Below, one piece after another: positions 15,962-53,869 of a stretch of DNA of 64,000 bases. Below the pieces are notes generated by a model. It was not told the origin of the DNA. It saw only the letters and a list, made by a program, of their open reading frames with translations, and searched no databases. The position numbers and the translations under genes are program-made. This stretch comes from Thunnus maccoyii (lineage: Eukaryota > Chordata > Actinopteri > Scombriformes > Scombridae), in assembly GCF_910596095.1 (NCBI RefSeq), contig NC_056539.1, positions 11,845,501 through 11,909,500 on the forward strand, read 5' to 3'. The stretch's first letter is position 1. Every line of letters starts with the position of its first letter.

Positions 15962-17274
15962 ATGATGCATGGTCTGCACAAGTTTCTGCTTTTCCATGTT
16001 CTGACATGTCTCAGACAAAATGGTAAGATTATCAAGTCTGATTATTATTCTGTAGTCTTCAAATGGGACATTGACTCATTTTCATTTTCTTATTTTTCAG
16101 GACTTGGCAGTGAAATCATAAATGGGAAAAAGGCCAAGAAGTCACTGCTGTATATGGCCTCAGTGCAAGTTAACAGAAGTCATAAGTGTGGAGGATTCCT
16201 CATCAGTGAAGACTTTGTAGTCACTGCAGCACACTGTGATAGCCCGTGAGTGACCTTTACTCTTCAATCTTCGATTAAATGTGATTTAAAGAAAACTGAC
16301 TATTCTGCCAATCTCTCAATCATTATTCATGCAGGCATCCTATGAGTGTTGTTCTCGGCACCAACAATCTCAGGAAGGTTGTTGATGACACAATGAGATA
16401 CAATGTAATGAAATACAAGCATCCAGATTATGTGGATATCCTATCTGGGAATGACATTATGCTCCTCAAAGTAAGTATTCACTCAACCAAATAGTCTCAG
16501 GTAATATCATGCACATTTACAGTCAAATTCTTTACATTCAACATATGTAAAAATCCATGAGGTTCAATAAATAAAATAAAGTGTTATTTACATGGGATAT
16601 ACTGTATGTAATATTATACAGTTATATATTATAATTATTTGATAACTTGAAGTCTGATGGAGGAAAATGCAATGTTATAAAATAAAATGCTGTCAGTGTT
16701 TCTCCTTCACTTTCTTATTTCATGTGTGTGTAGCTGTCTAGGAAAGCTCACCTGGGCAAAAAACCAATTAAGCCCATAAAGCTTCCAAGTCATCATATGA
16801 ACCTAAAAGGAATCAAAAAGTGCAGTGTAGCAGGATGGGGTTTCACAAGGACTGGTGGTCAAATTGTTGATGAGCTGAGAGAGGTGAATGTGTCGATCAT
16901 TAAACTGAAAGTCTGTAAGGACAAATGGCTTCCCGGTGTCAAGTTTCCTCACAATATTATCTGTGCAGGTGGATATGGCACAGACAAAGGATTCTGCCAG
17001 GTATGTTTTCTGTCCTCTAAAAGAAAATGGCAACTGGTTTCTAGTCTTAAAATGGTACAAACATCTTTAATTAAATGATGAGCAAATAAATTATGATACT
17101 TCTTCCCAACAGGGTGATTCTGGTGGTCCTCTGGTGTGCAATGGGATAGCAGTTGGTGTTGTGTCTTTCAACAACGGTGGGAACTGTGACTACCCAGATG
17201 TACCAAACATCTATACAGACATATCAAAATTTATTCCCTGGATCAATGTGTTTCTCAAGAAAAACAATTCTTGA
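15962..17274 (+). CDS. Granzyme/mast-cell-protease-like serine protease, copy A
   Basis: Secreted or granule-stored S1A serine protease, 256 aa. Exons: 15962-16022, 16101-16245, 16335-16470, 16734-17000, 17113-17274, with intron phases 1, 2, 0, 0, the layout of granzymes, chymases and neutrophil elastase. Exon 1 is a hydrophobic signal peptide. Exon 2 opens with LGSE then IINGKKA, so activation would remove a short propeptide after Glu, as in granzymes processed by dipeptidyl peptidase I, and ends with His57 in TAAHC. Asp102 is in GNDIMLLK (end of exon 3); Ser195 in GDSGGP (start of exon 5). All eight cysteines of the four usual disulfides are present, including 191-220, which granzymes lack. 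S1 residues are Gly189, Phe190, Gln192, Asn216 and Asn226, so trypsin-like Asp189 is absent. A NVS glycosylation site is in exon 4. AATAAA at 17369. Fish annotation often names such genes granzyme B-like, mast cell protease 1A-like or duodenase-like. Confidence 0.88.
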
Positions 17275-19247
17275 ATGTAACAATGTTTTGAATTGTGGAT
17301 GTATTAAATTTGATTGTATTGTGGCTGCTAACTCACTTTGTCAATTTTGCTTTTTGATCTAAATGCAAAATAAAATCTCAATTCAAATTGTGACTTCTTT
17401 CATTAGTAGACACAACTGCAAAGGTTCTTTATCCAAGAAAACATTCACAAAACCTATCAGTATAAGTTTTTTTGAACAGGATGAACACACTGCAGCTTTT
17501 TCTAATGAATCTCTTTCTCGCTTTCTGTTCTGACTTTTCCATTGCTGCATGAAGTTCACAGATTCAGACCTCACAGCCTGCGCGTAAAACTGAGTCCAAC
17601 ACAAATCTGACAAGTGTTTTTATACAGAATGTTTGCATAAAACTAACAGAATCAAAATTCAAAAAGATATATTTTTATGACACTTTAAGATTTCCTGAAA
17701 TTCTGAATTAAAACTCATATAACAATGCTCCTTTAGACTGCTAGCTGTGAAGTAATGATCAACAGTTTAAATCTAAATACATCATTTTCAGCTTCATCAC
17801 GCTGACTGTGAGAACATCGATGCTCACATCTGCAGCTGGAAACTGTGGTTCCTGTGGTTTATTTTTCACACAGTGTTTTTGTCGGTTGTGTCACGTAGAT
17901 CCACACCAAAGAACATTGCTGTATCTGTGTTCATCGTGTAAACAGCTTAACCAACTAAAGATCATCTGATGTGGTTATGAAGTATCCACAAACCTGTGAG
18001 AGAAGGTAAACCAAAAGGGTCCAACATGAACTGAATCAAGAGAATAAAATGCAAAATGAAAAGGAAAGGTAAATTGAATGAAAAGTGCAGAAAGGAGAAT
18101 AGATTTGTGCAAGATAAGTCTGTATGAAATGCATGACAAAGACTGGATCACTATTTTGTTTGACTTTTTTTTAAAGACTATGACACAAGCAATATGTCAG
18201 TAAATAAAGTGCAAAAAATAGGTTGTACAAATGTGCTTGTGTGATATATAATCTGCTATATCTGTCACTGAGAGAAAGACCGTTACTGTGTGGTTACTGT
18301 CAGCCTAACTTCCTGGCTTCAAAATGAGACAAAAAAGAAGCTACAAAAACAATTTGTCCTGTAAAACTTAATTTCATGCATTTTGTGGTTTGCTTAAGGT
18401 CGAAGTACAAAATATCACCAACAAAACCCAAAACTACCAGACCAAGCACACTGCCCTGAACTATCTGCCTCGCTTTGTAAAAGTCTGTGGAACATTTATG
18501 CAATTTTCCTAACTAAATTGTATAATAATTACAAATTATGTTTGTGGATGTATTAAATTTGATTGTATTGTGGATGTATTGCTTTTTCTAACTCACTTAG
18601 TCAGTTTTTGCTCCTTAACCTAAATGCAAAATAAAATCTCAATTCAATTTGTGACATCTTTCCTGAGTAGACATAAATGCAAAGATTCTTTATCAAGGAA
18701 AACATTCATAAAGCCTATCAGAGTAAGTTTAAGGAAGTACACTGTAGTTATTTTTTTACGTGATGGAGGCACTGCAGCATTTTTTGATGAATCTGGTGAC
18801 ACAGACTAGAAGGAGACAGAAAGCACTGGAAAGCCTCAATCCATACAGACCCTGCTTTCTTTTCTGATTTTTCTATCACTACATGAGATGCACAGATTCT
18901 GACATCAGAGCCTGCGCCTGAAAGGCTGCACTGAGTCCAACACAAATCCAACAAGTGCTTATGGTTTCATTTCAACAAAAGTCGAGTTTTCCAGTGAACA
19001 AAGTTTGTGTTTAAGATAAAAAACCTAATAATACATAACAGGAAGGGACTTTATATATTGTTTAAGACACACTATGAGGCAAAAGCGCATGTGTGTGCTT
19101 TTGTGTGCCACACAGTACTGACACAACTGCCAGGGTTTGTGTATCTGTGAGCTTAGGTGCATGTAAAGTACAATATGTGTTTTTGGGCAGATGGGTATGT
19201 TTGCATAAATGCATAAAATGATATTCCTTGTGAAACAAGGACACAAA
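17275..19247. other. Intergenic DNA between protease copies A and B
   Basis: Holds the 3' UTR of copy A, then (about 17800-17965) a block with gaaactgtgg and cacaccaaagaacattg that recurs before other array genes, then sequence similar to the copy A 3' flank again (about 18530-18720, tattaaatttgattgtattg). No intact exon is seen. It looks like remains of an earlier duplication unit whose gene body was lost. Confidence 0.55.
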
Positions 19248-51909: not shown

Positions 51910-53869
51910 ATGGCGATCCACTTTGTGCTACTGCTCTTCTTTGTCCTAAATGGTAAGCTACACTGTCCTCACGATTCAAATCCCAAAGCAGCAACAACTA
52001 AAAGCATATTGTATGTCTCATTTCTATACATGGTGAAAAGCTATAAAAACTCGGATTAACATAAGGCAATAATATATGAAGTATTTTGTGTTTCAGGGGC
52101 TTATGGTTCTCGTATTGTTGGAGGCAGAGACGCTGCCCCACACTCGCGCCCCTACATGGCCTCACTGCAGTTCCGAGGTCGCCACAACTGTGGGGGAGTG
52201 CTGGTGAGAGAAGACTTTGTGCTCACAGCAGCACATTGTCAGATACCTCGGTAAGAATTCAAAGATAGGCCAGTTTTTTTTTTTGTTTTTTTTGTTTCCA
52301 GCAATAATGTCACTACAACATAACAGCATAACAACATAACTATAACTGATAACTGGAGATTTGAAACAATGTGGGCTTCTATGAGAGCATGCTGACCAAT
52401 TCCCAAAGTATAGCCTCTGGTTTCATTTCATGTCAAATCAATTACAAAATCAACATGTCACATCTTAACATTTGCCATACTCACTTAGTTAGTAATTCAT
52501 AACAGTAAATATTATATACAGTTTAATCAAAACTAAGTTTCAAGCACAATTTTTATTGTGCTTTTATTTATTCATAAGTTTATTTCTTTTACACAGTTAA
52601 ATCCAGAAGACTAACATGAGAGGCTGCTTTTTGTCTACTCTCAAGGCTTGAATCAATGCAACAACAAGAAGAGTTATAAAACAGTTCCTACCTGTGAATG
52701 TGTTATGCACACAATTAAGTAACTTTGACAAAAAACAAAGACAATGAAATGTTCCCTGTGGTGAATTAAATAATTCAAGTCGTATTGTATTAAAATGAAT
52801 GGAAACCACTGAATAAAACCTTAGATCATGCTTTGAACAAGTTTTTTTCTCTCAGATACTGATGTTTTTCTGTCAAGAGAGATCGTCAGCATTTTATCTA
52901 ATCTCCAATCATCATTCAATTTTGTTCCCTAGACCGTACACAGTTGTGGTCGGAGCTGATTCCCTGTCAGCTAATGAGTCAACAAAGCAGGAGTTCACTG
53001 CTGTCAGATCCATTCCACATCCCAGTTACGATGGACATGAAAACGACATCATGCTCCTAAAGGTGAGGACATTTTAAACTGATAAAAATGATAAATGTGG
53101 GTGGTGACAAATCTTCACATGTTGTCCACTACTTCAAATTTTAAGTAGAATCCCTCTTCATTATTGTTTCTAGTTTGCACAAAAACAAAAAATGTGATGT
53201 TAAGACTTCACAAAATCTAACACACTCAACATTTTCTCTATTTTTCTACCATGAATCTCCACCTCTCAGCTCAACCGCAGGGCCCGACTGACTACAGCAG
53301 TGAGGCTAATCTCTCTTAAAAGGGGACCTGTGAGAAGAACCAGTCGGTGCATCACAACTGGCTGGGGTGATATAGGTGATAACAACACCTTACCAAGCAG
53401 GCTTCAGGAAGTCAACGTTACCATCCTACAGCAGCGGGCATGTCGTAGAAGATGGGGACTGGTTCCCATCACCAGGACAATGATTTGTGGCACTGGGGCC
53501 CGTGTGTTTCAAGGCTTCTGCTCGGTAAGAAAATACACCAGCTACACTTTGATCAGCATGTAAATTGATCTTTGAAGATGATGTCTTTAGCATGTAAAGA
53601 TGACATTTTAGGTTCGCAGTTGGCAACTAAGTTTTGGACACAAAGAAAAAATCACTCAGTTTATTCTAAACAAAGTACACCTACTGTTAAGTTTTGTTGT
53701 ATCTTTTCTGTTAAAGGGCGATTCAGGTGGTCCGTTGGTGTGTGATGGAGAAACAGCAGGCGTGGTCTCCTTCTCTGGCCGGCGATGCGGAGACCCCAGG
53801 ACCCCCGATGTCTACACACGCATATCATCCTTCAGGGAATGGATTGCAACTGTGTTGAACAACAATTAG
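51910..53869 (+). CDS. prss57: Serine protease 57 (neutrophil serine protease 4)
   Basis: 244-aa S1A protease; in mammals an azurophil-granule enzyme of neutrophils that cuts after Arg. Exons: 51910-51952, 52097-52250, 52933-53062, 53270-53524, 53717-53869 (phases 1, 2, 0, 0). Signal peptide [18 protein letters not shown], then SR, mature start [20 protein letters not shown], close to human PRSS57 around HSRPYMAS. His57 in TAAHC, Asp102 in ENDIMLLK, Ser195 in GDSGGP. The S1 pocket reads GFCS (Gly189, Phe190, Ser192), SFSG (Ser216) and TPDVYT (Asp226), the set known for human NSP4, where Phe190 lids the pocket. Eight cysteines for four disulfides. NNT, NVT and NES glycosylation sites. Many Arg residues make it basic. 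The position next to fgf22 agrees with human 19p13.3. AATAAA at about 54155. Confidence 0.9.

Follow-up and report, generated by a model that had tools for sequence, protein, structure and literature searches.

A probable new example of the fish granzyme-like protease cluster, next to prss57 in Thunnus maccoyii

Introduction

Clusters of granzyme-like serine protease genes are known from other fish. According to the available part of PMC4646688, the fish met-ase locus holds up to 19 protease genes in zebrafish, and most of the new fish genes of this locus form a fish branch of their own close to the mammalian chymase-locus genes. The same part gives Gly189-Asn216-Asn226 (GNN) as the general triplet of the fish group containing catfish granzyme-like I, a met-ase with the consensus RVTGMSLV, remarks that the fish enzymes retain Cys191-Cys220, and describes another fish cluster, flanked by rabl3-like on one side and CD276 or ERCC1-like genes on the other. 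A 2024 study (PMC10855939, in the part available) suggested that the cluster arose from PRSS57 in gar, sturgeon, bichir, catfish and zebrafish. Here, we analyzed a window of 64,000 nucleotides of T. maccoyii (contig 7, 11845501-11909500, in an assembly of 782 Mb and 54 contigs) that carries an array of seven intact protease genes beside prss57. This array is very likely a new, recently grown example of the granzyme-like protease cluster known from other fish.

Mammalian names such as granzyme B-like or duodenase-like, which fish killer-cell proteases usually receive, conceal their separate history. The present locus offers a clean and recent case in which the neighboring prss57 is intact, and the published question of descent from PRSS57 or kinship with chymases can be asked there at residues 190, 192, 216 and 226. 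Neither the gene group, its triplet and the remark on Cys191-Cys220 (PMC4646688, 2015) nor PRSS57 duplication as the source (PMC10855939, 2024) is new, going by the parts of these articles at hand; what would be new is PRSS57 descent established by a tree. The first-pass annotation of this DNA had suggested that an expanded NSP4-like family would be a distinct fish innate-immune set; the array very likely belongs to a fish gene family that is already published.

An array of GNN-type proteases

The array comprises seven intact S1A-type protease genes (G1 to G7) between an FGF gene and prss57, the genes through prss57 spanning window positions 15962-53869. All gene models were splice-checked and lie on the plus strand. 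G1 to G7 and prss57 each have five exons with intron phases 1,2,0,0, GT/AG at all introns, no internal stop, and the catalytic residues His57, Asp102 and Ser195 (8/8 in every case). A hydrophobic leader is present in all of them, followed before Ile16 by Ser-Glu in the array and by Ser-Arg in prss57. The array proteins have the cysteines for four conserved disulfides. An extra C-terminal cysteine is found in G2, G3, G5 and G7, and G7 has 11 cysteines.

The count of seven intact genes in the first-pass annotation is thus correct, but they encode only six distinct protein sequences. It had also counted at least four dead copies. Inside the array, three pseudogenes are clear, whereas three further exon-1-like fragments, near 28430, 37503 and 45283, are weak. 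The fragments score 25-26 bits (E 0.07-0.1), and therefore a count of four depends on one of them. The pseudogene at 19896-20957 aligns with the G1 region in two blocks of 97.4% and 99.5% identity.

Gly189, Asn216 and Asn226 occur in all seven genes. As GNN is general in the group of catfish granzyme-like I (PMC4646688, in part), the array very likely belongs to this fish group. As far as the available parts of PMC4646688 and PMC10778636 describe them, the fish GNN-type proteases (catfish granzyme-like I, zebrafish AE-like, gar MCP-1A-like) resemble the array in the met-ase locus, in Gly189, Asn216 and Asn226, and in Cys191-Cys220. By description only, the array differs from them in copy number and in the recent duplication of a two-gene unit.

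Cathepsin C takes a dipeptide off granule proteases. The Ser-Glu pair before Ile16 would be this dipeptide, and the enzymes would be stored active in the granules of natural killer (NK)-like or other cytotoxic cells. By analogy with catfish granzyme-like I, they are predicted to require a strict extended sequence and to cleave behind Met or a hydrophobic residue of similar, medium size, and not behind Arg as NSP4 does. Their most likely function would then be that of granule proteases of cytotoxic cells with strict specificity and Met or a similar residue at P1.

Several points weigh against this assignment and function. The triplet amounts to three residues, and membership of the GNN group is drawn from residues and locus rather than from a tree with catfish, zebrafish or gar sequences. 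The triplet also predicts fish specificities poorly, according to the parts of PMC4646688 and PMC10855939 available; a case in point is catfish granzyme-like II, labeled a tryptase in 2015 and an Ala-elastase in 2023. The placement in cytotoxic cells is a prediction from the DNA. Finally, the mature G7 protein is acidic, with an isoelectric point of 5.9 as against 8.1-9.5 in the other six.

Comparison of the promoters of the array genes and prss57 gave scattered TGTGGY sites and no clear conserved block. G1, G2 and G4 have a TATA-like box near -50, and G7 has one only at -234; none was seen in G3 or prss57. An Rfam scan returned no matches.

Pocket residues and the Cys191-Cys220 bridge

Pocket residues were read from all seven array proteins, five of which are included in an alignment of 35 sequences (see next section). 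The first-pass annotation had reported Gly189-Phe190-Cys191, as in PRSS57, in six of seven copies, and this is what we observe: residues 189-192 read GFCQ in six genes and GICQ in G2, the corresponding residues of prss57 being GFCS. Among the aligned sequences, Phe190 is restricted to both PRSS57 proteins and four of the five from the array. The array thus shares Gly189, Phe190 (6/7) and the Cys191-Cys220 bridge with its neighbor, to which its proteins are 38-43% identical. In contrast, Ser192, Ser216 and Asp226 of NSP4 are found in none of the seven genes, which have Gln192, Asn216 and Asn226 instead. The term "NSP4-like" used by the first-pass annotation therefore hangs on Phe190, whose codon in G1 (TTC) is one base away from that of Ile190 in G2 (ATC). 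"Lidded", too, has Phe190 as its sole basis.

Two of the missing residues are those to which published work attaches the specificity of NSP4, and an NSP4-like function of the array is not supported. In the available part of PMC7914634, Ser192 and Ser216 give the enzyme its Arg selectivity and are conserved in all NSP4 homologues; its wording that Val190 and Val216 shield Asp226 is at odds with Phe190 and Ser216 in the human PRSS57 chain matched in PDB. A docking model has Phe190 and Ser216 touching the P1 Arg (PMC4783772, in part), and the accessible text of PMC4646688 gives GSD as the PRSS57/NSP4 triplet. Among the titles and abstract openings listed for literature on PRSS57 in fish, in which subscription journals are barely covered, none mentions Phe190 in fish enzymes.

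The disulfide between Cys191 and Cys220 had been taken as a second sign of PRSS57 ancestry, kept in the array and lacking in granzymes. Both cysteines are indeed present in all seven array genes, and are absent from GZMB (human, rat-type), GZMH, cathepsin G and duodenase. They are also absent from three compared members of a GZMB/chymase-like group at 11.369-11.479 Mb of contig 7, 0.38-0.49 Mb from the array (hereafter C7-upstream genes); the group comprises at least four genes, and their 37-loop is long. However, the bridge is kept in GZMA, GZMK and GZMM, in CFD, elastase and PR3, in prss57 and human PRSS57, and in the GZMA/K genes of contig 9 and the granzyme-like genes of contig 11. We therefore rejected it as evidence for PRSS57, since GZMA, GZMK, GZMM, CFD, elastase and PR3 share it. 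The bridge argues against a place of the array inside the GZMB/chymase group, without pointing to PRSS57. The 37-loop is short in the array and longer in all five mammalian chymase-locus proteins, in all three C7-upstream genes and in PRTN3. Proteins of the granzyme B, cathepsin G and duodenase group also differ from the array at residues 189 and 226 (human chymase was not aligned).

Relationships of the array

The alignment comprised 13 mammalian references (human chymase and azurocidin not among them), five array proteins (G5 and G6 being left out as near-copies), prss57, and 16 other genes of the same genome. For the genes of this genome, profile-matched exon segments were joined end to end, and a few junction residues are missing. 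Three C7-upstream genes were included; a further copy, excluded, carries Asn in place of Asp102, and its exon-5 match stops at 22 of 51 positions. We compared 14 trees under WAG+I+G4, keeping the constrained searches short. A second set of 34 sequences, from which the long-branched CFD-like gene of contig 16 was dropped, was used under LG+C20 to compare seven trees in the fast mode of IQ-TREE, where a constrained search exceeded the unconstrained one by 1.1 log units.

In the maximum-likelihood (ML) tree of 35 sequences, the array forms one clade with support 100/100, the deep branches are without resolution, and the array is not joined to PRSS57. Hence, the tree called for by the first-pass annotation gave neither a well-supported placement with GZMB/chymase or GZMA/K nor support for the array with PRSS57. 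The approximately unbiased (AU) test rejected three candidates for closest relative: GZMA/K (0.011), GZMM (0.031) and CFD (0.036). The Shimodaira-Hasegawa (SH) test rejects none of them (0.068-0.128, the lowest value being that of GZMA/K). Granzymes A and K have the Cys191-Cys220 bridge as the array does, but carry Asp189 and Gly226, as against Gly189 in 7/7 array genes. A grouping with trypsins is borderline (AU 0.0605), and one with elastase/PR3 has AU 0.32. The ELANE/PRTN3 combination of Asp226 with Val216 is absent from the array, which has Asn at both positions. When elastase/PR3 replaced PRSS57 in quartet analyses, 100 of 350 quartets joined them to the array, 89 joined the array to chymase and 161 supported the third arrangement, with 58% unresolved.

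Contig 11 carries, at about 11.711-11.720 Mb, three granzyme-like genes with Gly189-Ile190-Cys191-Gln192, Thr216 and His226 (GTH type), between TFIIE-alpha and UDPGT genes. We take TFIIE-alpha (GTF2E1) to lie beside RABL3, and the position would then be of the rabl3 type. It is a serious possibility, if short of probable, that the array and this cluster form one fish branch, near but outside the mammalian chymase/GZMB group, with one of the loci transposed from the other. Besides the position of the contig-11 cluster, this would agree with the available part of PMC4646688, where fish genes of both loci share a branch of their own close to the chymase-locus genes. Quartets point the same way, 138 of 210 joining the array to the contig-11 genes and 23 joining it to PRSS57. 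Both clusters have Gly189, Cys191 and Gln192, and in both Cys220 is preceded by one extra residue. Yet these residues are few, the extra one is also present in human GZMA, and the contig-11 genes differ from the array in Ile190, Thr216, His226 and locus. The topology tests (AU 0.44 under WAG+I+G4 and 0.40 under LG+C20) do not separate this arrangement from others.

Descent from an ancient tandem copy of prss57 is conceivable but somewhat doubtful. Gly189, Phe190 and the bridge would have been retained, and Ser192, Ser216 and Asp226 replaced by Gln, Asn and Asn. In its favor, prss57 adjoins the array in the same orientation, Phe190 has the narrow distribution given above, and the same origin has been proposed for five other fish (PMC10855939, in part). 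The arrangement of the array with both PRSS57 proteins has AU 0.54 under WAG+I+G4 (0.35 with fish PRSS57 only). Quartets favor PRSS57 over the mammalian chymase-locus proteins (186 against 109 of 350), also with the C7-upstream genes added (229 against 159 of 560). Against it, the ML tree keeps array and PRSS57 apart, and quartets favor the contig-11 genes over PRSS57. Under LG+C20, the PRSS57 arrangements have AU 0.165-0.173; the one with both proteins (0.165) is 7.8 log units below the best tree, and the one with fish PRSS57 is inside the 95% set by AU but outside it by bootstrap proportions of resampled log-likelihoods (bp-RELL) and expected likelihood weights (c-ELW). Ile190 is found in G2, one base from Phe, and in the three contig-11 genes, and the saturated synonymous distance between array and prss57 makes any split old. 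Tentatively, and we consider this rather unlikely, the array might be a PRSS57-derived lineage that kept the Phe190 lid and exchanged Ser192, Ser216 and Asp226 for Gln, Asn and Asn as a set; an Arg-specific neutrophil-type enzyme would thereby have given rise to strict, hydrophobic-specific killer-cell proteases that are still multiplying here.

That the array consists of true GZMB/chymase-type genes inside the chymase-locus clade is improbable: although G1 finds its top PDB matches in duodenase, natural killer cell protease 1 and cathepsin G, with human PRSS57 in sixth place, and although joining the array with chymase and C7-upstream genes gives the same likelihood as the ML tree (AU 0.86; 0.47 with the chymase locus) and is best under LG+C20 (AU 0.66), the array keeps Cys191/Cys220 and a short 37-loop, unlike all mammalian chymase-locus proteins and C7-upstream genes compared, so that a position inside the clade, as opposed to that of a sister group, which is possible, would require the bridge to be regained.

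The earlier proposal of a PRSS57-type rather than a granzyme B ancestor is thus supported in part: GZMA/K, CFD and GZMM are not closest by AU, although SH rejects none of them, and the bridge and short 37-loop are unlike GZMB/chymase. For the closest relative, the tests do not choose between PRSS57, the chymase/GZMB group, elastase/PR3 and the contig-11 cluster.

Recent duplication within the array

A unit of 7.78 kb with two genes and an exon-1-like fragment occurs twice in tandem, with 99.8% identity at aligned sites, and a third, partial copy follows (Table 1). The proteins of G4 and G6 are one residue apart. Among G1, G2, G3 and G4, pairwise synonymous distances (dS) are 0.36-0.47, with ratios of nonsynonymous to synonymous distance (dN/dS) of 0.52-0.64; between G3 and G7, dS is 0.021 and dN/dS 0.93. 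Judged from these distances, the expansion of the array is far younger than its split from prss57. The copy number may still be changing, most simply by unequal crossing-over of the two-gene unit.

We consider it unlikely that the presence of both unit 1 and unit 2 reflects a false duplication of the assembly, in which case the true number of intact genes would be five. Of their 17 differing sites, 15 lie inside 31341-31614, leaving only 2 elsewhere in the 7.78-kb units, which speaks for a false duplication. Speaking against it are those 15 sites, the five gaps between the units (2, 2, 18, 18 and 1 bases), including one 18-base difference in intron 1, and the 34 differences between units 3 and 2.

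A 103-base tandem repeat of 2.2 copies lies just 3' of G3, G5 and G7 (32964-33187, 40743-40966 and 48525-48748); the other matches of the tandem-repeat scan in the window are small repeats. A run of 25 G occurs on the plus strand at 27987-28011, between the exon-5 pseudogene remnant and unit 1.

Features of the window

The FGF gene upstream of the array is presumably fgf22, a name that comes only from its position and the first-pass annotation. The best PDB match of prss57 is human serine protease 57 (E 4.3e-55).

Table 1. Features of the window (positions counted from its first nucleotide)
Feature	Position	Strand	Details
FGF exons in two open frames	4737..6797	+	Pfam FGF, E 2.2e-9 and 1.1e-16
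G1, intact	15962..17274	+	GFCQ, Asn216, Asn226; exons 15962-16022, 16101-16245, 16335-16470, 16734-17000, 17113-17274
Pseudogene, recent copy of G1	19896..20957	+	exon 2 missing, frame break in exon 4, exon 5 truncated
G2, intact	22135..23401	+	GICQ (Ile190)
Pseudogene remnant	24227..24334	+	exon 5 only, Ser195 motif altered
Tandem unit 1	31319..39093	+	G3, G4, exon-1-like fragment
G3, intact	31516..32940	+	GFCQ
G4, intact	34043..35854	+	GFCQ
Tandem unit 2	39094..46873	+	G5, G6, exon-1-like fragment; 17/7757 aligned sites differ from unit 1
G5, intact	39295..40719	+	GFCQ; protein identical to G3
G6, intact	41822..43633	+	GFCQ; protein 99.6% identical to G4
Tandem unit 3, partial	46874..49184	+	G7; 34/2308 aligned sites differ from unit 2
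G7, intact	47075..48501	+	GFCQ; 96.4% to G3
Pseudogene fragments	49534..50076	+	GDCGGP in place of GDSGGP
prss57 orthologue	51910..53869	+	Gly189, Phe190, Ser192, Ser216, Asp226, as in human PRSS57
Spindlin-type gene, open frames with Spin/Ssty domains	56959..58941	+	Pfam Spin-Ssty, E 3.4e-21 and 1.1e-17

Other protease loci in the genome

Apart from the contig-11 cluster and the C7-upstream genes, in whose region a further exon 2 lies at the edge of the extracted stretch, the genome carries other loci of this kind. Contig 9 has seven GZMA/K-type exon-2 matches in tandem at 11.335-11.373 Mb. The CFD-like gene of contig 16 (5.275 Mb) has Asp189 and has lost one conserved disulfide, Cys136 and Cys201 both being gone. 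Large tandem arrays of trypsin-family exons, in which near-equal copies recur at spacings of about 1.54 kb and 5.44 kb, are found on contig 20 (15.935-15.961 Mb) and contig 18 (27.17-27.61 Mb).

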